DNA of 18,780 nucleotides from a bacterium (GTDB lineage: Bacteria > CAIJMQ01 > JAADFP01): the NCBI GenBank assembly GCA_027021085.1, contig JALUVB010000016.1, positions 1 to 18,780 on the forward strand, written 5' to 3'. Below, in pieces: positions 1,004 through 17,549 of this stretch. The notes beneath the pieces are model-generated. The model worked only from the letters and a program-made list of their open reading frames with translations. It searched no databases and was not told the DNA's origin. Both the position numbers and the translations under genes were made by a program. Every line of letters begins with the position of its first letter. Position 1 is the stretch's first letter.

Positions 1004-2203
1004 CTATTTGATAACTTCTGTTGCCACTCCTGCTCCTACTGTATGTCCCCCTTCTCTTATTGCAAACCGCAAACCAGGCTCTAAAGCCACTGGCTTCATC
1101 AACTCTACTTCCATCTCTATATTATCCCCAGGCATTACCATCTCCACACCCTCGGGCAACTTTATCGTGCCGGTTACATCCGTGGTCCTCATATAAAACT
1201 GCGGCTTATAGCCGGTGAAGAATGGTGTATGCCTGCCTCCCTCTTCTTTTGTCAATACATAAACCTGTGCTTTGAATATTCTATGCGGGGTTATACTCCC
1301 GGGCTTTGCCACTACCATTCCCCTTTCCACCTCATCCTTCCCAATCCCCCTTAACAGAATACCGACGTTATCTCCTGCTACTGCCTGGTCGAGTTCTTTC
1401 CTGAACATCTCCAGGGAGGTTGCCACTGTCTTCCTGGTTTCTCCCAGCCCTACTATCTCTATCTCATCTCCGGCATTAATTTTCCCTCTTTCCACTCTTC
1501 CGGTTACCACGGTCCCTCGCCCGGTTATGGAGAAAATATCTTCTATCGCTAACAAGAAGGGTTTCTCCGTGTCTCTCACCGGCTCAGGGATATAATCATC
1601 CACTGCCTTCATCAGCTCCCATATCTTACCGCACCACTGGCAATCTTCCTTCCCGCAGCCGCATTCCAGCGCCTTCAAAGCACTTCCCTGGATTACCGGT
1701 GTATCATCGCCGGGGTACTCGTACTTGCTCAACAGGTCTCTTACTTCTAAATCTACCAGCTCCAGCAACTCTTCGTCATCTACCTGGTCCACCTTGTTCA
1801 AAAATACTACCATAGCCGGCACATTCACCTGCCTGGAAAGCAGGATATGCTCTCTTGTCTGGGGCATGGGACCGTCTGCTGCACTGACCACCAATATTGA
1901 ACCATCCATCTGTGCAGCGCCGGTTATCATATTCTTTATGTAATCTGCATGACCAGGGCAATCTATGTGTGCATAGTGCCGCTTTTCTGTTTCATACTCT
2001 ATGTGGGCTATCTGGATGGTCAATCCTCTTTCTTTCTCCTCGGGAGCTTTGTCTATCTCATCCAATGGCTGATAGTCCGCCCATCCCTTTTTTGACAGTA
2101 CCATGGTTATCGCACTGGTTAAGGTTGATTTACCATGGTCCACGTGTCCTATCGTTCCTATGTTTAAATGCGGTTTCTTTCTTTCAAATTTTCCTTTAGC
2201 CAT
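1004..2203 (-). CDS. tuf: elongation factor Tu
   Basis: EF-Tu is the GTPase that delivers aminoacyl-tRNA to the ribosome. Its 399 residues fit the family (about 394-400). G-domain motifs are present: GHVDHGKS (19-26, with Ser where Thr is usual in bacteria), DCPGH (81-85, catalytic His85), NKVD (136-139) and SAL (174-176). Domains 2 and 3 follow, with [15 protein letters not shown] and the C-terminal [16 protein letters not shown]. Two features stand out. The switch I segment reads [10 protein letters not shown] instead of the common ERGITINTAH. A compact four-cysteine cluster, [12 protein letters not shown], lies at residues 181-192. AGGAGG precedes the ATG at an ideal distance, and fusA ends 13 nt upstream. 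Confidence 0.98.
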
Positions 2204-2216
2204 TACTCACCTCCTG

Positions 2217-4325
2217 TTACAACTCTTCAAGTATTTTCTTCAATACATTCGCCGGAACTTCAGAAAACTTTGCAAATTCCATAACATAATTTCCCCTTCC
2301 CTGGGTCAATGAGCGTAGAATTGTAGCATAACCAAACATTTCTCGCAAGGGTACATAGGCAATTATTATGCAGATTTTCCCTCTATGTTTCATCTCTGCT
2401 ATCTCCCCGCCCCGGGCACTCAAATCTGCCAAAACTTCGCCTAAGTATTCTTCCATGGTGACCACTTCCAATTTCATTATGGGCTCAAGGAGATAAGGGT
2501 CAGCTTTCTGAAGGCCATTCCTTACTGCCATACTGGCAGCAGTGTAATAGGCAATGTCGGAAGAATCCACTTCGTGAGAAGAGCCATCTATAAGAGTAAC
2601 CTTTACATTTATTACCGGATAACCAGCCAATACTCCACTATCCAGAGCTTCCCTGGCTCCCTTTTTCACAGAGGGAATAAACTGCGGAGGTATCACTCCT
2701 CCCTTTATTTTATTGACAAACTCAAATTCTTCATTATCTATAGGGGTTAACCGTACCACCACATGCCCGTATTGCCCCCTTCCTCCACTCTGACGAATAA
2801 ATTTACCTTCTGCAGTAACTTCTTTCTTTATGGCCTCCCGGTAAGAGACTTGAGGCTTGCCCAGCCTTATGCCTACTTTGAATTCCCGTATTAACCTGGT
2901 GGTGATAACTTCCAAGTGTAACTCTCCCATGCCTGAGATTAAAGTCTGTCCGGTCTCTTCATCAAACCTTACCTTAAAAGTAGGGTCTTCCTCTTCCAGC
3001 TTCTTAAGGGCTGTTACTAACTTGGTTGCCTCATTTTTATTCTTTGGTTCAATGGCAATGGAAATTACTGGTTCGGGAAACCGCGGCCTCTCCAGAATTA
3101 TAGGGTGAGCTTTATCACACAGGGTGTCCCCGGTAAAAGTATCTTTACAACCCACTATTACTGCAATTTCTCCCGCATGGGCAATAGGCCTTTCTTCTCT
3201 TTTGTTGGCATGCAGGAGCAAAATCTTAGAAATTCTTTCCATTTTCTTGCGAGTAGCGTTGTATACCTTGCTGCCTGCCCTAAGATACCCTGAGTATATA
3301 CGCAGGTAAATTAACCTGCCGGAGAACGGGTCATTGGCCACCTTAAAAGCCAGTGCAGATAAGGGGGCATCCAGGGAAGTCTCCCTAACCAACTCCCTTT
3401 CTGTTACCGGGTCTATGCCTTTTATAGGAGGCACCTCCAATGGCGAAGGCAAATACTTGACCACTGCATCCAGAAGAAGCTGTATCCCCTTATTTTTTAA
3501 CGCAGAGCCGCAGAAAACCGGCACCCAGTATTTCTCCAAAGTAACTTTTCGCAAGGTTTCTTCTATAAGTTCTCTTTCTATTTCTTTATCCTCTAAATAC
3601 TTTTCTAAAATTTCCTCGTTTTCTTCTCCCAGTTGTTCCAAAAGGGATTCCCTCCATCTTCCCGCGAACTCAAGCTCTTCCGGGGTCAATTCCCTTTCCT
3701 CGTAATCCACACCAAGTCCATTTTTCCCGTATATGTAAGCTTTCATGCTCACCAGGTCTATCACGCCCTTGAAATTCTCTTCTTCTCCCAGGGGTAAGGC
3801 AATTACCACAGGATACGCTTCTAATTTATCTCTTATTTCATCCACAACTGTAAAGAAATCGGCACCTTTGCGGTCCATTTTATTAATGAAAGCAATCCGC
3901 GGCACCCCGTAGCGGTCTGCCTGTCTCCATACCGTCTCAGACTGGGGTTCTACCCCTCCCACCCCGCAGAAAACAGCCACTGCCCCATCCAGAACCCGCA
4001 GCGACCTTTCTACCTCAGCAGTGAAGTCCACATGCCCTGGTGTATCTATTATGTTTATCCTGTGCCCTTTCCAGAAACAGGTAGTAGCTGCAGCAGTTAT
4101 GGTAACTCCACGTTCCTTCTCCTGGTCCATCCAGTCCATGGTGGCTGTCCCCTCATGCACTTCTCCCATACGGTATATCTTGCCGGTATAAAAAAGTATC
4201 CGCTCGGTAGTAGTGGTCTTACCCGCATCAATATGCGCCATTATCCCTATATTTCTTATTTTCTGGAGAGGATAGACCTCTCGTTTTTCTTCCTTCTCCA
4301 GCATAATACTTGCTTTTTTTACCAT
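2217..4325 (-). CDS. fusA: elongation factor G
   Basis: EF-G is the translocation and ribosome-recycling GTPase. The 702 residues cover the whole five-domain protein. Motifs seen are [15 protein letters not shown] (G1, 30-44), ERGVTI (switch I), DTPGH (94-98) and NKMD (148-151), followed by domain IV and V signatures such as GQYGHVVV and LRSLTQGRG. The start is uncertain. The ATG at 4325 overlaps the rpsG stop by 7 nt and no Shine-Dalgarno sequence is visible. A second ATG at 4304 (codon 8) has none either. I keep 4325 because stop-overlap reinitiation by ribosomes leaving rpsG would explain the missing site. The extra N-terminal residues before [10 protein letters not shown] carry no known motif. 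Confidence 0.97.
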
Positions 4326-4789
4326 CTGTAATGAGCAAAAGCCCGGTTAGATTCAGCCATTCTGTGAGTATCTTCTTTCTTCTTTATTGCCGCCCCTTCA
4401 CCTTTATACGCTTCTATGATTTGTTTTGCCAGTCTCTCCGCCATACTCCTGCCTTTACCCTGACGTGCAAGAGAGATAACCCACCTTATTGCCAGAGCAA
4501 TGCTCCGGTGTGGACGCACCTCAACCGGCACCTGGTAGGTAGCCCCTCCGACCCTGCGTGGTTTTACTTCCACAGTGGGTCTAACATTATTTATAGCCTG
4601 TTTAAATACCTCAAGCGGGTCTTCATTTTTAATCCGCTGGGCCACATAATCTAAAGCGCGGTAGAAAATTCTCTGGGCTGTGCTTTTCTTGCCATCCCAC
4701 ATTAAAATATTCACAAACTTGGAAACCATAACACTGCCAAACTTCGGGTCAGGCATAGCTTCCCTCTTAGCTGCTCTTCTTCTGCGCAT
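4319..4789 (-). CDS. rpsG: 30S ribosomal protein S7
   Basis: S7 nucleates assembly of the 30S head and lines the E and P sites. In many bacteria it is also a repressor of its own operon. The 156-residue product matches the family length, begins [10 protein letters not shown] and contains [12 protein letters not shown] and ALAIRWVI. It ends NRAFAHYRW, the usual S7 C-terminus. GGAGG stands 5 nt before the ATG. It lies 12 nt after rpsL and its stop overlaps the presumed fusA start. I see no room upstream for an S7-binding leader like that of the E. coli str operon, where the site is between rpsL and rpsG. Confidence 0.97.
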
Positions 4790-4801
4790 ATTTTCCTCCG
4801 T

Positions 4802-5173
4802 CTATTTTTCCCGCTTACTTCCGTAGCGAGAACGAGATTTTTTCCTTCCTTCTACTCCCTCTGTATCCAGAGAGCCACGCACTATATGATACCTCACTCC
4901 AGGAAGGTCTTTAACTCTACCCCCTCTAACCAGAACCAGGGAATGTTCCTGAAGATTATGTCCTTCGCCGGGGATGTACGCAGTCACCTCCACTCCAGAA
5001 GAAAGCCTTACTCGCGCCACCTTTCTCAGGGCAGAATTAGGCTTCTTGGGAGTAACTGTGTACACCCTCATACACACGCCTTTTCTCTGGGGAGAAGCTT
5101 TTAAGGCAGGACTCTTAGATTTTGCCTCAGGCTTCCGTCTCCCCACCTTCGCTAACTGATTCAACGTTGGCAT
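4802..5173 (-). CDS. rpsL: 30S ribosomal protein S12
   Basis: S12 is in the decoding centre and controls accuracy. The 123 residues contain the invariant [11 protein letters not shown] (41-51), [13 protein letters not shown] and [13 protein letters not shown]. Both lysines where streptomycin-resistance changes usually fall are present (K43 and the Lys of VKDLP, K88). Asp89, the residue modified by RimO in other bacteria, is also present. The ATG at 5173 lies inside the last codons of rpoBC, so the two genes overlap by 47 nt in different frames. The next gene, rpsG, follows after 12 nt. Confidence 0.98.
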
Positions 5174-8100
5174 TTTTTATTACCTCCACTTCTCTATAAT
5201 CTCTCCATCCCGTTCCGGCCGGGACTAAGTTGCCAATTATAACATTTTCCTTGATACCCTTCAATGGGTCTCTTTGCGCACTTACCGAGGCGCGGGTAAG
5301 CACACGGCTGGTTTCCTGGAAAGAAGCCGCGGCAATGAAACTATCGGAAGAAAGGGAAGCCTTGGTAATCCCCAGTACCAGGGGACGCGCCTGGGCTGGT
5401 TTACCGCCATTTGCCACCACTTTTTCATTTTCCTCCTGGAACCTGAATTTATCCACCTGCTCTCCCCACAAAAACTCCGTGTCTCCCGGGTCTTCCACCT
5501 GCACCTTCCTGAGCATCTGCCGTACAATAACCTCAATATGCTTATCGTTGATTCTGACTCCCTGAAGTTTGTAAACTTCCTGTATCTCGTTCAACAGGTG
5601 GTACTGCAGCCTTCTCTCTCCTTCTATCCTCAACATTTCCTGCAGAACCGGTGGCCCATCGGTAAGCCTCTGTCCTGCTTCCACTCTGTCTCCTACATCG
5701 ACTTCTATATGTTTGCCAGGGGGAACTTTGTACTCTCTAACCTCCCCGTCTTCTCCCTCAATCACAATTCTTCTTTCTTTTTCTTCCCGCAAAATGCTCT
5801 TTACCACACCATTAATTTCCGTAACTCCCGCCGGGTCCTTGGGCTTCCTGGCTTCAAAGAGCTCGGAAACCCGCGGCAGTCCTCCGGTTATATCCGTAGC
5901 TTTCACCACTTCCCGCATACTCTTTGCTAACATATCCCCTGGCTTAACAATCTGCCCGTCTTCCACAACAATGTGTGTATTGATGGGAAGGGGATACAAT
6001 CTTTCTTCCCCGGTTTCTTCGTTCTTTACCTTAAGGGCCGGCTGGAATTGAGGTCTGTGCTCAATAATTACCTTCTCCCTGAGCCCCGTTTCCCTGTTAA
6101 CTTCTTCCTTGAAGGTAACATCGGGAATCATTTCTTCAAATATTATCTTTCCCCCAATCTCAGATAAGAATGGCCTGACGTAGGGATCCCACTCTATCAA
6201 TACCACACCCTCTTCCACTTCCTTTCCATCTTCCACTTTTACACTGGCACCCACGGGCACCTTAAATTTTTCCACCTCTCTTCCTTCCGGGTCCAGCAGA
6301 ATTAACCATCCGTTACGATTAAGCACCAGTTTTTCTTTTTCTTTATTTATCACCTTCAGGTTGACGTATTTGACTACCCCGCCTTTCTGGGCAACATATT
6401 GATTCTCGCCAATAATACGGGTAGCCATACCCCCTATGTGGAAAGTTCTCAAAGTAAGCTGTGTGCCGGGCTCCCCGATGGCCTGGGCTGCCATTATGCC
6501 TACTGCCTGGCCTACTTCTACAATTTCTCCGGTAGCCAAATCTCTTCCATAACATTTTTGACAAATTCCGCCTTTTGTTTCGCAGGTGAGCACTGAACGC
6601 ACAGGAATCTCCTCCACGCCGGCTTCTTCGATAATTTCTGCTTTATCCGCCGTTATCTCTTCTCCCGCCTTTACAATAATGTTTCCCAGGGAAGGTATTC
6701 TTATATCTTCCAGGGAAAATCTGCCGGTAATTCTGTCTCTCAAGGGGATTATCTCCCTACCACCCACTTCCAAGGGTCTCATAATTATTCCGTTAAGTGT
6801 GCCGCAATCCTCCTCTCTCACCACAATATCCTGCGCTACATCCACTAACCTTCTGGTGAGGTATCCTGCTTCGGCTGTCTTCAAGGCAGTATCTGCCAGT
6901 CCTTTTCTACCTCCATGGGTGGATATGAAGTACTCCAACACAGTAAGCCCTTCCCGGAAATTGGTGAGAATAGGGGTTTCGATAATTTCTCCTATAGCAC
7001 CCACAAGTTTCCTACGCGGACGGGCAATTAGCCCTCTCATACCTCCCAGCTGCCTTATCTGCTGTGCACTTCCTCTTGCTTCCGAGGCCATCATCATGTG
7101 TACCGGGTTAAAGGGTTCACTGGACAATGCTTTTAACATCAAATCCGCTATTTCATCCGAAACCCTGGTCCAGAGGTCTACCACCCTGTTATATCTTTCA
7201 CCCTGGGTAATAACTCCCTTACGGTAATCCCTGTCGATTTTCTCTGCTTCTACCTGGGCCTTCTTTATTATTTCCCACTTCTCACCGGGAATTTTGACAT
7301 CAGAGATAGCCATGGAAATCCCGCCTATCGTGGCATAATGAAATCCCAGTTCTTTTAAATCATCCAGGAATTCTACCGTCTTATCCCTTCCCTTAACTTC
7401 TATAGCCTTGGCAATCAATTCTGTCAACTTGCTCTTTGTCATCGGCTCATTTACAAAAGGTAACCCTTCCGGCAGCAGGGAATTGAACAAAACCCGCCCC
7501 GGCGTAGTCTCTATAAATTCCCCGTCCTGCCTTAGCAAGATAGGCTCATGCAGTTTAACACTACCCATATCATAAGCTAAGATAACTTCTCCCGGGTAAT
7601 AAAACTTATAGCGGGCTTCTTTTATAGAAGGGTCCTGGATAGTAAGATAATAGGTCCCCAGAACAATGTCCTGACTGGGAGTTACCACAGGTCTGCCATC
7701 AGCAGGGCTGAAAAGATTGTTGGGAGATAACATCAATATCTGTGATTCTAAAAGAGCCTCCATGGAAAGAGGCACGAATATGCTCATGGTATCTCCGTCA
7801 AAGTCAGCATTGTAAGCTGAACAAACCAGGGGATGAATTCTTATTGTTTTCGATTCGTGCAGAATGGGGAAGAAGGACTGAATACTTATCCTGTGCAGTG
7901 TGGGCGCACGGTTAAGAAGAACGGGATGCCCCTTAATCACCTCTTCCAGAGCTTCCCATACCTCGGGCGTGCCTTTCTCTATCAAATTTTTCCCTGCTTT
8001 TATCGTATGCACAAATCCCTTCTCCCGCAAATCTCTTATAATGAAGGGCTGGAACAACTCCAGAGCCATTATTTTTGGCACTCCGCACTGGTGCAACTTC

Positions 8101-11100
8101 AACCTGGGGTCTACAACAATAACCGACCTGCCGGAATAGTCCACTCTTTTACCCAGAAGATTCTGCCTGAACCTTCCATGTTTTCCTCCCAGGGTATTGG
8201 CAAGCGATTTAAGGGGTCTTCCATTCTGGTCCACCACGGCTCTTCCCCGCCTTCCATTGTCAAAGAGAGCATCCACAGCTTCCTGCAACATCCGTTTCTC
8301 ATTTCTCAATATAATGTCAGGGGCGCCCATCTCCATAAGTTTTTTCAGGCGGTTGTTACGGTTTATGAGCCTGCGGTAAAGGTCGTTCAAATCAGAGGTG
8401 GCAAATCCCCCCTTGTCCAAGGGGACAAGCGGGCGCAGGTTAGGAGGAATCACAGGAACCACCTCCAGAATCATCCACTCCGGCCTCTGGTTGGATTTGC
8501 GGAATGCCTCGACTAATTTTAGTCTTCTATTTATCCTCCACTTTTGCTGTCGGGAATGGGTCAATTTCTCTGCATTTCTCAATTCTTCCGCAAGTTTGGC
8601 CAGGTCCAGGTCCTGCAGGATTTCCCGGATAGCGGGAGCTCCCATTCCTGCCCGGAACCTTTCCCCGTAATTCTCCTTGGCTTCCTGGTATTCCTGCTCT
8701 CTTAGTACTTCGTATTTCTTTAAGGGGGTGTCACCCGGGTCAATGACTATCCAGGCATCGTAATATATCACCCGTTCAAGATTCGGCAGGCTGACATCTA
8801 AAAGTGTCCCCATAACTGAAGGGACAACTTTGAAAAACCATATATGCGCTACCGGCGTAACTAAATTTATATGCCCCATCCTTTCTCTTCTTACCTTGGA
8901 AAGGGTAACTTCTACACCGCATCTTTCACAAACAACACCTTTATGCTTGATTCTCTTGTACTTCCCGCAGTAGCACTCCCAATCTCGCGTAGGGCCAAAG
9001 ATCTTCTCACAAAACAGCCCATCTCTCTCCGGCCTTAGAGTGCGATAATTGAGGGTCTCGGGCTTCTTTACTTCCCCGTAAGACCAGGACCGGATAAGAT
9101 GCGGCGATGCCAGGCCCAGAGCAACACTTTTTACCTCGCTTCTTCCCCGGTTAATTACCAGGACTCCTTCTTCGGCAGGTGCTCCTCTGGCTTTCTCAAC
9201 CTTAACATCCAGGCATAACCCCTGCAGCTCTTTAACCAAAACATTGAAAGACTCCGGGATAGTAGGGACAAGGGCATTCTCTCTTTTCACTATTGCCTCG
9301 TATATTCTGCTTCTGCCTTCAATATCATCGCTCTTTACTGTAAGCATTTCCTGCAGAGTATAGGCTGCTCCATACGCTTCCAGCGCCCATACTTCCATCT
9401 CACCAAACCTCTGCCCTCCGAATTGGGCCTTACCACCCAGTGGCTGCTGAGTCACGAGGGAGTATGGGCCAGTAGCCCGGGCATGCACCTTATCCTCTAC
9501 CATGTGTACAAGCTTCATCATGTAGATATAGCCCACCATCACGCGTGAATAGAAGGGTTCTCCTGTTCTCCCATCGTAAAGAACAGTTTTACCATCGCCC
9601 GGCAAACCTGCTTCTTCCAGAATCTTTTTTATGTCTTCTTCCCGTGCTCCATTAAATACCGGGGTTATAGCCTCGCATCCCAGGGCCTTGGCCGCCCATC
9701 CCAGATGGGTCTCTAATAACTGCCCCAGGTTCATCCGGGAAGGCACTCCCAGGGGATTTAATACTATCTCTACCGGGGTTCCATCGGGAAGATAGGGCAT
9801 GTCTTCTTTGGGAAGGACGCGTGCCACTACTCCTTTATTCCCGTGTCTTCCCGAGAGTTTATCTCCTTCCTGTATTTTTCTCTTGCTGGCTACATAAACC
9901 TTTACCTTCTTGATTACTCCGGGGGGCAACTCCTCCACTTCCACCAGTTTCTTTATTTCTTCCTCTTCTTTTTTCTTGAATTCTTTACCCCTTTCTCTGT
10001 ACTCTTCTTCTATGGCTTCTATCCTGGACTCAACTTCCGGGTCCCCCACTTTCAGCTTCTTTAAATTCCTACCGCGAATCTTTTCCCAGATTTCCTCGCT
10101 AATTAAAGTCCCCTTGGCAATCACATCTTTTTTCTTTACCTGGAAATCATTGCTTAACTTTTTACCCAGCAGGATATCCCTGATTTTGCGTTCTCTCTCC
10201 CTGGCCAAACAACTTCTAAGGGCAGAATACTTTCTTTTCACCACGGCCACTTCCGGAGAATTCTCTCTTTCCTTCTCTATATCTTTTTCCTCGCGGGAGA
10301 AAACCTTTACATCAATCACCACACCACTGACGCCGGGAGGAACTCGCAAGGATTTATTGATTACATCGCTGGCTTTCTCGCCAAAGATTGCCCGGAGCAG
10401 TTTCTCTTCGGAAGTAGTTACTGTTTCCCCTTTAGGGGTAACTTTCCCCACTAATATATCCCCCGGCTTAACATATGCCCCTATGCGGATAATCCCATCC
10501 TCATCCAGGTTAACTAATTCTTCTTCTCCTACATTGGGAAGATCCCGGGTTATCTCCTCCCTTCCCAATTTTGTTTCTCTGCATTCCAGGCCGAAATCCT
10601 CTATATGCACAGAAGTATAAACATCCTCTTCCACCAATTTCTCGCTTATCAGGATAGCATCCTCAAAGTTATACCCTTCCCAGGGCATGAAGGCCACCAG
10701 CACATTTTTTCCCAGAGCTAACTTTCCCTTACGGGTAGCAGGCCCATCTGCCAGTACATCTCCCTTTTTAACCCGGTCCCCCTTATTTACCAGGGGACGC
10801 TGGTGGAAACAGGTGGACTGGTTAGTACGGGTAAATTTCTTCAAGGGGTAATAGCGGAAATCACTGAATCCTCCTTTTCTCTCTTCCCGCACGATTATAA
10901 TTTCGGAGTTTACCTCCTCCACTACCCCATCACCCAGGGAAACTACCACCGCACCCGAATCTTTTGCCGCAATCTTTTCCACTCCGGTCTGCACTAAAGG
11001 AGCCTGGGGAAAGAGAGGGGGCACTGCCTGTCTTTGCATATTAGAACCCATCAAAGCTCTGTTAGAATCATCATGTTCCAGGAAGGGAATGAGCGAAGTA

Positions 11101-12923
11101 GCCACGCTGACTGTTTGCATGGGTGTAACATCCATGTAGTCAACTTTTTCTCTCTCCACCCGCAGAAAATCGCCCCGATACCTTACTAAGACTTCATGCT
11201 TCTGGAACTTGCCATTTTCATCTACGGGCGCATTTGCCTGGGCAATGACAAAGTTATCTTCTTCGTCAGCAGCAAGCCATTGTATTTCATCTGTGACCAC
11301 ACCCTTTTTTACCTTACGGTAAGGTGTAACCAGCAATCCCAGTTCATTAACCCTGGCATAGGTGGCCAGGGAGGTTATTAACCCAATATTCTGTCCTTCC
11401 GGGGTTTCTATGGGGCATACTCTGCCGTAATGAGTGGGATGAACATCCCTTACTTCAATTCCCGCTCTTTCCCGGCTTAATCCTTCCGGTCCCAGGCAGC
11501 TTAACCTTCTTTTATGGGTAAGTTCTGCCAGGGGATTCGTCTGGTCCAGGAATTGAGACAACTGGCTGCGGGCAAAAAATTCATTCAGGGTAGTGTTAAG
11601 AATCCTGGGATTGATAAGATCATGCGGCATGATACTGCCCTCATTTTCCAGGAGGGTTCTTTCCTGGGCCATGCGAGCCATACGAAGAAGTGCCACACGT
11701 GTTTGATTCTCTAAAAGGTCGCCGATTCTTCTCACCCTTCTATTCCCCAGGTGGTCTACATCGTCAACTTCTGCTTCACCTTTTACCAGTTTTTGCAGTT
11801 CTTTGATGGCAGCAATTATATCCTGTATCCGCAGAGTAACTTCATCCAGGGGGGTATCAAAACCAAATCTACGGTTAAGCCTGTACCTCCCGATTCTGGA
11901 CAGGTCAAATCTATCCCTGTCAAATAAACTGGCAAAAATATAGGCGCGGGCAGTCTCTATTTCAAAAGGATTACCGGGCCTTAAACGAGAGTACACATAG
12001 GAGAGTGCTTCCTCTTCTGTTTTATGCTCATCTTTTCTCAAAGTGTTGATAACCATAAGGTCTTCCAGAGAAGTATCTCTGATAACTTTTATTTTCTTAA
12101 TGCCCTTTATTTTCATAATTTTGAGGTGCTCTTCTTCTACCTTGCTTTTGCTCTCCAGCAGAACTTCTCCTGAATCCGGGTCTATCACATCTTCTGCCAG
12201 TATTTTCCCCAGGGCTTTATGGGGTGCCCTTTTGCTTTCCAGGTTGATAGTATCCACCGTGTAGAAGGCGCGTATAATATCTTCATCCCGCGAGAAACCT
12301 ATGGCACGGAGAAAAGTAGTAATCCACATTCGCCTTCTTCTTCCCACACTCACATAAATAAGGTCATTGTAATCCGTGCTGAATTCCAGCCATATTCCCC
12401 TATCAGGAATTATCCTTCCGGAAAATAGCTCCTTACCCTTGCTTGTGCCCAGAGATTCAAAGATAACACCCGGCGAACGATGTAATTGGGAAACTACGAC
12501 TCTCTCTACTCCGTTTATTATAAAAGTGCCTCGCTCAGTCATTAAAGGGAATTCGCCCAGATAGACTTTCTCTTCTCTTATAGAACTTATCTCTTTTCTC
12601 TTGACACTTTTATAAACGTACAAACGAGTAGTGAGTTCAACCCGGGCAGCATAAGTAAGTCCTTTTCTCAGACACTCTTCCTCAGTGGTATAAGGATCCT
12701 CGATTTCGTAATCAACACAATGAAGTTCTATCCTCCCATTTCTGCCGGTAATGGGAAATACTTCCTCCAGGATTTTTTTCAATCCTTTCCGTTTACGCTG
12801 TGCATACGGTATGCCCTTCTGAAAGAAATCCTGGTAGGACTCTTTAGACACGCCTAACAGGTCAGGGAATTCCCCCACTGACTGTACCTGAGTAAAATAT
12901 CTCTCCTCTACTCTCTTAGGCAT
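5127..12923 (-). CDS. rpoBC: fused RNA polymerase beta-beta' subunit
   Basis: One uninterrupted frame of 2598 codons encodes both large subunits of core RNA polymerase. Residues 1-1244 are Rpo[13 protein letters not shown], the rifampicin region [29 protein letters not shown], and the active-site lysine segment [18 protein letters not shown], ending [12 protein letters not shown] linker of about 18 residues follows. From about 1263 the chain is RpoC: zinc site 1 (C1317, C1319, C1332, C1335), catalytic NADFDGD (1705-1711), bridge helix, zinc site 2 (C2040, C2114, C2121, C2124), trigger-loop [10 protein letters not shown] (His2162), and C-terminal [19 protein letters not shown]. No ATG, GTG or TTG codon occurs in frame in or near the linker, so RpoC could not be made separately from a standard start. 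The two residues after NADFDGD differ from the norm, and an insertion lies at 1970-1977. I use ATG 12923 rather than the in-frame GTG at 12932, which the Shine-Dalgarno sequence would overlap. Confidence 0.96.
5182..5187 (-). promoter_or_regulatory. ribosome binding site of rpsL inside rpoBC
   Basis: GGAGGT lies 8 nt before the rpsL ATG at 5173. The same bases are codons of the RpoC C-terminal tail (the Glu-Val-Glu-Val stretch). Initiation on rpsL must therefore happen on mRNA still being read for rpoBC, which suggests translational coupling. Confidence 0.8.
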
Positions 12924-12931
12924 ATTTGACA

Positions 12932-12937
12932 CCCCCT
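12932..12937 (-). promoter_or_regulatory. ribosome binding site deciding the rpoBC start
   Basis: AGGGGG lies 8 nt upstream of the ATG at 12923. The alternative GTG start at 12932 would overlap this sequence and has no other site, so the ATG is favoured. Confidence 0.75.
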
Positions 12938-13188: not shown

Positions 13189-13602
13189 TCACTTCACCTC
13201 TACGGTCGCTCCTACTGCCTCCAATTTCTTCTTCACTTCTTCCGCCTCTTCCTTGGAAACCTTCTCTTTTACAGGCTTAGGAGCATTATCTACCAATTCC
13301 TTGGCTTCTTTAAGCCCCAGGTTCGTTAAAGAACGCACTTCTTTGATTACTTGAATCTTTTTGTCTCCCGGGGATACGAGAACCACATCAAACTCTGTCT
13401 TTTCTTCTTCTGCTGCTGCTCCTCCAGCCGCCTCTCCTGCCTGGGCACCTGCCACTACCGTGCCCACTACCTGTGGCTGAGCAGATACGCCAAATTCCTC
13501 CTCCATCGTTTTTACTAACTCGGATAACTCCAAGACGGTTAGGTTCTTGATTCCTTCCAGGATATCTTCTTTGCTTAACTTTTTACTCTCCTTTTTGGTC
13601 AT
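13189..13602 (-). CDS. rplL: 50S ribosomal protein L7/L12
   Basis: L12 forms the multimeric stalk that recruits and activates translational GTPases such as the EF-Tu and EF-G of this operon. The 137-residue product has the standard plan. An N-terminal dimerisation helix pair (about 10-40, [19 protein letters not shown]) is followed by an Ala/Gly-rich hinge (about 48-66) and a C-terminal domain from KTEFDVVL to GATVEVK containing [10 protein letters not shown]. It is some 10-15 residues longer than the usual 121-128, mostly from a lysine-rich N-terminus. AGGAGG lies 6 nt before the ATG, inside the end of rplJ, and the two genes overlap by 20 nt. The L12:L10 excess must then come from strong initiation rather than a separate transcript. 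Confidence 0.97.
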
Positions 13603-14140
13603 TTCCTTCCTCCTCTCTTTTTTTATCTTTCCAGTTGCTTATGAGAATAACAAAACTACTCAATATACTCCCCAAAAGATACTCCAGGTTAAATATAGGG
13701 GCCTGCATACCGCCCAATACCCTGCCAAGCATAACTTCTCGTGAAGGGAGAGAAGCTAAATACTTAACTTTATCAGCAGCAAAAACAGTTCCTTCCACCA
13801 TCCCTCCCCGGATCTGGAACGCAGGGAAGTCATTTTTCAAGGAGCTCAATTTCTTCAATACATTTAACCCATCTTCTGAAGAAAAAATAACCCCCGTGGG
13901 GCCCTCTATGAATTCCCTCAATCCAGAAGGTCGGGACTCATCGCTTTCCAGAAGCATTTTAAACAAGCGGTTTTTAATAACCTGCAATTCAGCTCCCGCT
14001 TCCCTTATTTGTCTGCGTACCTGCCCCAATTCCTCGGATTTCAAACCTTGATAGGAAACAATAAAGATAGTTTCTGATGCTGATATTTTTTTCTCCCAGC
14101 CTTCAAGTAATATTTTCTTCTTGTCTTTAGTGATTGCCAT
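13583..14140 (-). CDS. rplJ: 50S ribosomal protein L10
   Basis: L10 anchors L12 dimers to the ribosome at the base of the stalk. The 185-residue product has the L10 N-terminal domain ([38 protein letters not shown]). A C-terminal helix (about 148-172) should be the L12-binding segment, followed by a charged tail. The tail is encoded in the 20 nt shared with rplL. The gene starts 3 nt after the rplA stop with AAGGTGA as ribosome binding site. The usual long leader to which L10-L12 binds for autoregulation has no room here. Confidence 0.96.
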
Positions 14141-14143
14141 ATC

Positions 14144-14845
14144 TCACCTTACCATTTCTATAAGTTCCTTAGTATTAACTTTCACTGATGGCCCCATAGT
14201 AGTAGCGATAAAGACACGCTGGATAAAGCTGCCTCTCAAGGAAGGTGGTTTCAGCTTTAGTATAGCCCTTATAGCAGCAATAAGATTTTCCAGTATATTC
14301 TTTTCGGGGAAAGATACTTTCCCTATGGAGAAATGCAAATTGCCACCTTTATCCAGCTTAAACTCCACTCTTCCTGCCTTTATTTCCTTGATTACCGCGG
14401 ATAAGTTCTCGGTTACAGTTCCTGTCTTGGGACTGGGCATCAGACCCCGCGGGCCCAAAATTTTCCCTACTTTCCCCAGCTCTCTCATCATGGAGGGAAC
14501 CGCCACCACGCTGTCAAAATCCAGCCATCCTCCTGCTATTTTTTCCACCAGCTCTTTTCCTCCCACTATATCTGCACCCGCCTTTTCTGCTTCCTGTGCC
14601 TTGTCCCCTTCAGCCAGGGCTAACACCCTTATCTTCTTGCCCACGCCATGCGGAAGGGATGCAGAGCCCCGCACCTGCTGGTCTGAGCGCTTTGGGTCAA
14701 CGCCCAATTTTATGGATACCTCCACTGATTCATCAAATTTTGCCTCACCCATTTTCTTTATCAAACTCACCGCCTCTTGCGGAGAGTACGCCTTGTCCTT
14801 ATCCACCAACTCCGATAACCTTACATATCTCTTACTTCTTTTCAT
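14144..14845 (-). CDS. rplA: 50S ribosomal protein L1
   Basis: L1 forms the mobile stalk at the E site and in many bacteria represses rplK-rplA by binding their mRNA. The 233 residues match the family length. They include KFDESVEVSIKLGVDPKRSD, GKILGPRGLMPSPKTGTVT (the L1 signature) and the C-terminal KVNTKELIEMVR. It starts 1 nt after rplK stops and ends 3 nt before rplJ. A Shine-Dalgarno-like AAGGG lies only 4 nt before the ATG, so coupling to rplK is likely. Confidence 0.97.
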   Translation of the reverse strand: MKRSKRYVRLSELVDKDKAYSPQEAVSLIKKMGEAKFDESVEVSIKLGVDPKRSDQQVRGSASLPHGVGKKIRVLALAEGDKAQEAEKAGADIVGGKELVEKIAGGWLDFDSVVAVPSMMRELGKVGKILGPRGLMPSPKTGTVTENLSAVIKEIKAGRVEFKLDKGGNLHFSIGKVSFPEKNILENLIAAIRAILKLKPPSLRGSFIQRVFIATTMGPSVKVNTKELIEMVR

Positions 14846-14846
14846 C

Positions 14847-15272
14847 TTACCCTTCTATTTCAATGCCCATACTGCGGGCTGTGCCCGCGATTATCTCCAT
14901 AGCGTTATCTATATCCAAAGCATTCAGGTCCTTCATTTTAAGCTGGGCGATTTCCTGCAGCTGTTTACGGGTTATCTTACCCACCTTTACACGATTTGGC
15001 TCACCCGATGCTTTGGCAATGCCTATTGCCTTTTTCAGAAGAACTGAAGCAGGGGGAGACTTGGTGATAAAGCTGAAGCTCCTATCTGCATAAACAGTTA
15101 TCACTACCGGGATTATCATCCCCTCTTCACTCTTTGTTCTTTCGTTGAACTGTTTACAAAAATCCATTATGTTAAGCCCGTGCTGTCCCAGAGCAGGACC
15201 CACAGGAGGAGCAGGAGTAGCCTGCCCCGCAGGAATCTGTAATTTTATCTGCGTCAATACTCTTTTAGCCAT
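14847..15272 (-). CDS. rplK: 50S ribosomal protein L11
   Basis: L11 binds the GTPase-associated region of 23S rRNA. With the ATG at 15272 the protein has 141 residues, the normal length. It contains [52 protein letters not shown] and [12 protein letters not shown] at the end. The same frame stays open upstream to 15326, but that part overlaps nusG and carries no L11 sequence, so I reject it. GGAG lies 10 nt before the chosen ATG. Only 1 nt separates it from the nusG stop and 1 nt from rplA. Confidence 0.97.
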
Positions 15273-15273
15273 T

Positions 15274-15810
15274 TTAAATCTTCTCCACTTGCCAGTATTC
15301 CAATTCAACAGGGGTAGACCGACCAAATATAGAAACCATAACCCTCACCCTCCCTTTATCAGAATCAACTTCGTCTATGTACCCGGAAAAATTAGTGAAA
15401 GGCCCTTCCACTATTTTAACATTCTCCCCTATCTCCAGAACAATGGTGGGACGAGGCTTGGATTTCCTCTCCTCAACCAAATTCTTAATCTTTGCTATCT
15501 CTTCCTCAGAAACAGCAAGAGGCTCTCTACCCCCAACAAAACCAGTAACACCAGGAATTCTTCGTATGAGATACCACAGCTTCTTATTCTCCGCCGGGTT
15601 TTCCATCTTTATGAACAAGTAGCCCTTATATATAACCTGCGTCCTCAAAGTACTCTTACCTTTTTTTATCTCCTTAACTTCCTCAGTAGGGACTAAAATC
15701 TCCTCCACTACATCTTCCATTCCCTCTAACTTCAGCCTGTGCTCTATTTCCTGCCGAACCTTCTCTTCCTGTCCGGTAAGAATATGCAAACTATACCAAT
15801 TTTTAGCCAT
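15274..15810 (-). CDS. nusG: transcription elongation/termination factor NusG
   Basis: NusG binds the RpoC clamp helices through its N-terminal NGN domain (about 4-115). Its KOW domain (about 126-176, [19 protein letters not shown] and [12 protein letters not shown]) binds Rho or S10. The 178 residues are a normal size, with [14 protein letters not shown] at the N-terminus. It starts 14 nt after secE. The spacer is almost pure A/T and the nearest AGG is about 14 nt upstream in the end of secE, so the ribosome binding site is weak and reinitiation from secE is plausible. Confidence 0.97.
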
Positions 15811-15824
15811 TTTTTTTAGTTTTT

Positions 15825-16019
15825 TTACCTGATTACTAAGGCAATGATTTTGCTGACCAGTAAGTCAACCACCCCTATATAAAATGCACTTATCACGCTG
15901 ACAATTATTACCAGGAAAGTAGAAACCCATAAGAGTTTTTTCTCCACCCAGGAGACTCTTTTCATCTCCGCTTTTACTTCCCTTAAATACCCTTTGAACC
16001 TACCTATTACACCCACCAT
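15825..16019 (-). CDS. secE: preprotein translocase subunit SecE
   Basis: SecE clamps the SecY channel in the inner membrane. The 64-residue product is the short single-span type common outside Enterobacteria. An amphipathic basic helix (RFKGYLREVKAEMKRVSWVE, about 7-26) is followed by one hydrophobic span (about 29-58). I place the start at ATG 16019, with AGGAG at 5-6 nt. The frame is open further upstream to 16064 but runs into tRNA-Trp, so that extension is not real. It sits between tRNA-Trp and nusG, the classic secE-nusG order. Confidence 0.95.
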   Translation of the reverse strand: MVGVIGRFKGYLREVKAEMKRVSWVEKKLLWVSTFLVIIVSVISAFYIGVVDLLVSKIIALVIR

Positions 16020-16033
16020 TTTTCTCCTTACTG

Positions 16034-16108
16034 CAGGCCTGGAGGGATTCGAACCCCCAACCACCGGATTTGGAGTCCGGCGCTCTCGCCAGTTGGAGCT
16101 ACAGGCCT
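16034..16108 (-). tRNA. tRNA-Trp (anticodon CCA)
   Basis: A 75-nt cloverleaf can be drawn. The acceptor stem AGGCCTG/CAGGCCT is perfect. The anticodon stem CCGGA/TCCGG encloses loop CTCCAAA with anticodon CCA. The T arm contains GTTCGAATC, and the discriminator base is G73, as expected for Trp. The 3' CCA is not encoded. It lies 14 nt upstream of secE and downstream of the promoter at 16225-16253, so it must be cut out of the protein-coding transcript. Confidence 0.97.
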
Positions 16109-16257: not shown

Positions 16258-16404
16258 CTACCTGGACTCTTTATGCAACGTATGTCTGCGGCAAAATCTA
16301 CAGTATTTACGAACTTCCATCTTCTCTCTTTTTTCTTTTCTTCTGGTGGTAATATAATTTTTTCTCTTGCATTCGGTACAGGCAAGATGCACAATCTCTC
16401 TCAT
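16258..16404 (-). CDS. rpmG: 50S ribosomal protein L33
   Basis: This small gene encodes 48 residues, MREIVHLACTECKRKNY... ending YCRFCRRHTLHKESR, the usual L33 size and pattern. Two cysteine pairs, CTEC (9-12) and CRFC (35-38), make it the zinc-binding form rather than a cysteine-free paralogue. L33 sits near the E site of the large subunit. The ATG at 16404 is preceded by AGGA. It follows tRNA-Thr(GGU) by 51 nt and precedes the promoter of tRNA-Trp-secE, so it is probably the last gene of the tRNA transcript. The tRNA/rpmG/secE/nusG grouping is common in bacteria. Confidence 0.95.
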   Translation of the reverse strand: MREIVHLACTECKRKNYITTRRKEKREKMEVRKYCRFCRRHTLHKESR

Positions 16405-17009: not shown

Positions 17010-17549
17010 TTAAAATTTCCCCTTTATCCATTTTGTAATTTCTTCTGCCAGGGCAGGAGAATCAAGCAATAAAGAGACTTCCTTGTTCTTAGTCAGTGCA
17101 TAGTAGCTCCAGTTATGGCTTCCCACCACACAGTATCTCTCGTCAACTATCACCACCTTCGCATGAGTGGTTATATCCATGGAGTCATATTTTACTTCTA
17201 TTCCATTTTTACTTAATATCTTTCCTACTTCCTTATTTCTTTGGGTATTCTTTTCGTTGTAGGAGGAGACGTCCAGTATTACCGTCACATTTACTCCTCT
17301 TTTCCCTGCTTTTATAAGTTCCTGGATCAACTGGTTGGAAGGAGAGAGAGGATACTGGGAATAGTACCTCATTTCATACATGACCACGTAAATAGAAGAT
17401 TCGGCTTTTTCCAAAAGCTGTTTAACCCGGGGGAAATAGTGATTGCCTTCTAAAAGCTCGATATCCTTGGCCGGGAAAGAATAGAGAAGAGAAGGAAGAA
17501 AAAATAGTAAAAAAACTAACCCAATTCTTTTTCTTTTCTCATACACCAC
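17010..17549 (-). CDS. secreted phospholipase D-family protein, probable Nuc-like endonuclease
   Basis: A 179-residue protein with one HKD catalytic motif: His129, Lys131, Asp136, then GSHNWS at 143-148. One HKD per chain in a short protein is typical of bacterial Nuc-like phosphodiesterases (often DNA-degrading), which dimerise to make one active site. Full-length phospholipases usually have two motifs. The N-terminus (KRKR followed by a hydrophobic run at about 9-25) is a signal peptide or membrane anchor, so the enzyme should act outside the cytoplasm. The frame has no ATG near its start. The GTG at 17549 has AGGGG at 8 nt, and a second GTG follows at once. It overlaps argF by 34 nt, suggesting translational coupling. 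Substrate unknown; it could cleave nucleic acid or phospholipid. Confidence 0.85.
   Translation of the reverse strand: MVYEKRKRIGLVFLLFFLPSLLYSFPAKDIELLEGNHYFPRVKQLLEKAESSIYVVMYEMRYYSQYPLSPSNQLIQELIKAGKRGVNVTVILDVSSYNEKNTQRNKEVGKILSKNGIEVKYDSMDITTHAKVVIVDERYCVVGSHNWSYYALTKNKEVSLLLDSPALAEEITKWIKGKF

Follow-up and report, generated by a model that had tools for sequence, protein, structure and literature searches.

The beta and beta' subunits of RNA polymerase are encoded by a single gene, rpoBC, in a candidate bacterial phylum. We hold with high confidence that this gene is a genuine inherited rpoB-rpoC fusion, that one translation event would yield a chain of about 290 kDa, that the fusion probably arose once before the phylum split from its sister, and that it is kept under purifying selection. 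The gene was studied in a window of 18,780 nucleotides, i.e., the whole stretch of DNA that was analyzed, and in its relatives across bacteria.

RESULTS AND DISCUSSION

One frame encodes complete beta and beta' subunits

The rpoBC frame is uninterrupted from GTG 12932 or ATG 12923 to the stop codon at 5127 (Table 1). Pfam, NCBIfam, and the translation agree with the earlier note, which had described a complete RpoB, a linker of approximately 18 residues, and a complete RpoC in one frame. Both NCBIfam models scored far over their cut-offs, and the RpoC portion contains the catalytic NADFDGD motif and the zinc-ligand cysteines. ATG 12923 is likely to be the start, and is preferred over GTG 12932, because AGGGGGTG, which precedes it, is likely to be the rpoBC ribosome binding site; position 12923, given previously as the gene boundary, was thereby upheld. 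The strand, absent from that description, is minus for rpoBC and for the ribosomal/translation operon around it.

Table 1. Features of the rpoBC locus (positions in the window)
Feature	Position	Strand	Basis or remark
rpoBC, fused beta/beta' gene	5127..12923	minus	2598 aa from ATG 12923; 2601 aa from GTG 12932
RpoB (beta) portion	9195..12923	minus	Pfam Rpb2 domains, residues 31-1246; TIGR02013 (rpoB), residues 10-1245
Linker, ~18 residues	9141..9194	minus	Rpb2_7 ends at 1246, Rpb1_1 starts at 1265 (Pfam)
RpoC (beta') portion, including stop codon	5127..9140	minus	Pfam Rpb1_1 to Rpb1_5, residues 1265-2528; TIGR02386 (rpoC), from residue 1270
AGGGGGTG, likely ribosome binding site of rpoBC	12930..12937	minus	Sequence and position relative to ATG 12923
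AAGGAG in linker	9164..9169	minus	Unconserved; no support as relic of a ribosome binding site (RBS) or as internal RBS
Out-of-frame TAATTAA	9151..9157	minus	Unconserved in congener G001
29 codons of selection test, G000 versus congener G001	9114..9200	minus	14 synonymous changes, 1 nonsynonymous change
Upstream genes rplL, rplJ, rplA, rplK, nusG, secE, usual order	13189..16064	minus	Pfam, NCBIfam
Downstream genes rpsL (S12), rpsG (S7), fusA, tuf, usual order	1004..5173	minus	Pfam

The fusion is shared by the phylum, and its linker is constrained

The source genome (G000) is a MAG of 1.93 Mb in 307 contigs, 94% complete, with a single RpoC locus. We sampled seven genomes of its phylum, from four genera and two families, and the junction is read through in frame in all of them. 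Six contain full fused frames of 2600 to 2691 amino acids; the seventh genome, G005, has a frame that begins at a contig edge with RpoB residue 976 and continues to the end of RpoC, and the remaining RpoB lies at the edge of another contig. Each genome carries a single RpoB C-terminal domain, in the same frame as its only RpoC, and a search of the seven revealed no separate or second rpoB or rpoC. The question whether close relatives keep the two genes apart is thus answered by fusion in 7/7 genomes.

The same junction occurs in both families of the phylum, with linkers that differ in length (17 and 24 residues). The source and congener G001 sequences are aligned with zero indels over 7809 nt, and dN/dS between them is 0.012 in the linker, versus 0.025 in RpoB and 0.019 in RpoC. 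Together with the ratio of 14 synonymous changes to 1 nonsynonymous change, this value shows that the linker is translated and under strong purifying selection within the genus. That the fusion is real, and not an assembly error, is borne out by the phylum relatives and by this coding constraint.

Fusions occur in at least 13 bacterial families

The earlier note had suggested a search for RpoB-RpoC fusions over bacterial genomes. We searched for the RpoC N-terminal domain in 386 genomes at least 80% complete, representing approximately 260 families and, judging from list order, approximately 150 phyla; the open frame was read around each match, and long frames were verified by blastp of both halves. 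True fusions were found in 13 families, a lower bound as some frames are cut by contig ends. Two are the source phylum's own families. The others are f77, the sister phylum, fused in 3/3 genomes (G081, G223, and G348); f67, f185, and f245 (G071, G212, and G338); f126 and f209 (G130 and G265); f40 and f166 (G044 and G189); f96 (G100); f108 (G112 and G246, with G370 assigned by frame length only); and f43 (G047, of the Helicobacter type). The grouping of these families into phyla was deduced from list order and agrees with the trees described below. Fusions had been considered otherwise rare and, by implication, local, a view contradicted by their presence in the whole phylum sample, in its sister phylum, and in a number of other families. 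None was found among the 80 named loci of another collection, a set that includes incomplete loci, is limited to exact-peptide matches, and may omit near relatives.

Frames of approximately 2000 to 2300 amino acids in four genomes turned out by blastp of their halves to be large separate RpoC proteins, and G259 was rejected as its genes are separate. The four proteins, L126 (G045), L127 (G124), L128 (G382), and L129 (G042), are unusually large and contain long insertions. The RpoC N-terminal frames of G053, G197, and G325 span only 632 to 638 amino acids, reminiscent of the cyanobacterial RpoC1/RpoC2 split. In f200, the RpoC N-terminal match was read through three TGA codons in each of two genomes (G247:C1:743300-744430 and G371:C1:739282-740412); this lineage probably reads TGA as an amino acid.

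The fusion has several origins

The tree that the earlier note had envisaged for counting fusion events was built on concatenated RpoB and RpoC (2381 columns), using only regions that one or the other of the two halves matched and leaving out the linker, and several origins were found. The source phylum was sister to G081/G223/G348 in four trees (support of 0.991, 100, 85, and 100). As every tree places it beside an all-fused phylum, the fusion event probably predates the split between the two. The Helicobacter-type G047 was located elsewhere in all trees, grouped with the unfused G192 (100). In the 41-row set, constraining every fused row to one clade cost 1246 log units (p-AU of ~1e-67), so that a single origin of all fusions tested was rejected; this and the position of G047 beside an unfused relative support the suspected independence from the Helicobacter type. 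Parsimony on the trees yielded 5 or 6 changes, and approximately five fusion gains would be the simplest reading.

The deeper phylogeny was unstable between models; the nearest named groups include Hydrogenedentota and Planctomycetota. G071/G212/G338 joined the source and sister phyla at 97 in two trees; in the remaining two, their place was taken by G130/G265, in one case with hardly any support. These four fused groups did not form one clade in three free trees, but forcing them together cost only 5.4 log units (p-AU of 0.283), so that one clade of the four was not rejected. We tentatively propose, with somewhat more doubt than conviction, that one ancient fusion underlies four candidate phyla (the source phylum, G081/G223/G348, G071/G212/G338, and G130/G265) and is thus deeper than the phylum, and that at least four additional fusions (G100, G044/G189, G112/G246/G370, and the Helicobacter type) mark the beta/beta' junction as a hot spot where genes have fused repeatedly and, apparently, seldom separated again. 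If the single origin under four phyla is true, the fusion would be a synapomorphy deeper than the phylum.

Comparison with known fusions

The fusion of Helicobacter and Wolinella has been published (Zakharova et al. 1999, cited in a passage of PMC1557499). The rpoBC gene described here shares with it the single frame, the gene order, the junction at which beta ends and beta' starts, and a short linker. It differs by its position on another branch in all trees, by a linker that cannot be aligned, and by being approximately 300 amino acids shorter; its score with the Helicobacter model NF007172/PRK09603 was 2760.8, under the cut-off of 5372, which the Helicobacter-type G047 exceeded with 5736. 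The published Wolbachia fusion (PMC6403173) has the same architecture, but the Wolbachia model NF011417/PRK14844 scored our protein at 2594, under its cut-off of 4632. Short peptides also link the same two ends in an engineered Bacillus subtilis RpoB-9 aa-RpoC, built to express the core enzyme, and in the M. bovis fusion cited in the same work (PMC8266666); unlike the natural rpoBC, these are artificial. A fused beta/beta' has been reported in "Candidatus Adlerbacteria" (PMC11515920). That fusion is reported, as here, from an uncultivated lineage. The group is a lineage of Patescibacteria; the fusion is not general in Patescibacteria, because those among the 80 named loci are unfused. Our literature search, thin on subscription papers, found no report of the phylum-wide fusion. 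On these sequence comparisons, rpoBC is a new phylum-wide case of a known fusion architecture, with an origin separate from the Helicobacter type.

Accounts of the fusion usually treat it as a peculiarity of Helicobacter/Wolinella and Wolbachia. In this analysis, it was present in all sampled genomes of a candidate phylum and of the sister phylum, and it recurs in other families. As a rare genomic change, it offers a phylogenetic marker where candidate phyla are poorly resolved. Independent fusions represent natural experiments on the effects, if any, that tethering the large subunits has on their assembly, stoichiometry, or regulation. Annotation and marker-gene pipelines that expect separate rpoB and rpoC may mishandle fused genomes.

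Proposed origin of the fusion and alternative explanations

Translation from ATG 12923 would yield the predicted beta/beta' polypeptide in one event, in which approximately 18 residues connect the conserved beta C terminus with the conserved beta' N terminus. These two termini lie near each other in bacterial RNA polymerase, and a fused chain could therefore fold and assemble as usual; tethered E. coli subunits reportedly work (Severinov 1997). Tethering would ensure that beta and beta' are made 1:1 and paired in cis. The fusion probably arose by loss of the rpoB stop codon in a tightly packed operon. Of 179 unfused pairs, 31 have nothing but a single in-frame stop codon between the genes, with the rpoC frame opening right after it, so that one substitution can fuse them; another 48 have overlapping frames. 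Fused linkers measure 9 to 35 residues between the homology ends (median of 19.5), versus a longer interval in unfused pairs (median of 55 codons). A strong functional need is doubtful, because the fusion of H. pylori was reported to be dispensable for viability (PMC12718164). That the protein remains single and uncleaved, that it assembles in cis, and what caused its fixation are the parts of this explanation that we infer.

The fused chain might be cut in the linker after translation to give two ordinary subunits. The linker differs in sequence and length among families and phyla, as expected of a dispensable spacer, but its strong constraint within the genus makes cleavage improbable, and we know of no such linker processing in Helicobacter.

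A second alternative involves the motifs of the linker. AAGGAG and the out-of-frame TAATTAA are present as the earlier note had pointed out, but their interpretation as relics of a ribosome binding site and a stop codon was rejected: both are missing already from the congener, where the same codons read AAGGTG and then TTG GTG ATT AAC, without TAATTAA. The linkers of G002 and of the sister family lack this arrangement as well, and AAGGAG occurs seven times in the rpoBC ORF. The absence of ATG, GTG, and TTG from the RpoC frame around the junction (codons -48 to +59 relative to 'IRSW') was confirmed for the source genome. It fails as an argument for fusion and is incidental, because the congener has an in-frame TTG-GTG at this place; conservation concerns the amino-acid reading instead. 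Separate production of beta', in addition to the fused chain or as the main route, through internal initiation near the junction could make use of AAGGAG in the linker, or of the congener's TTG-GTG soon after AAGGTG. Nevertheless, the source genome has no start codon in frame near the junction, and neither the SD-like motif nor a start codon is conserved over the seven phylum genomes, which renders internal initiation very improbable.

The omega subunit helps beta' fold and assemble, and fixation of the fusion as a replacement for this aid would fit the five fused genomes G001, G265, G112, G246, and G370, in which no omega (PF01192) match was found. However, omega matches over the cut-off were present in 14 of the 21 fused genomes and in 17 of the 25 unfused ones. 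This lack of a difference refutes the replacement as a general cause and leaves it very improbable. In the f108 genomes, which are 95 to 96% complete, omega may have been lost or may have diverged too far to give a match.

Finally, the probability that an assembly or sequencing error merged two neighboring genes is negligible, since in spite of the fragmentation of this MAG the junction agrees in seven separate phylum genomes, is free of indels relative to the congener, and has a linker that evolves like coding sequence.

Genes surrounding rpoBC

Apart from the fusion, the genes identified with Pfam and NCBIfam follow the standard order on the minus strand, secE-nusG-rplK-rplA-rplJ-rplL-rpo-rpsL-rpsG-fusA-tuf-rpsJ-rplC. 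With its first ATG as the start, the rpsL ORF (4802-5173, minus) would share 47 bases with the end of rpoBC; the Pfam S12 match begins at residue 18, and the true start is thus probably internal. A 48-aa ORF at 16258-16404 (minus), located between tRNA-Thr and tRNA-Trp, reads like ribosomal protein L33 (rpmG). At 17010-17549 (minus), a 179-aa phospholipase D-like protein, with NucT, DrmC, and cardiolipin synthase matches under the cut-offs, overlaps argF.
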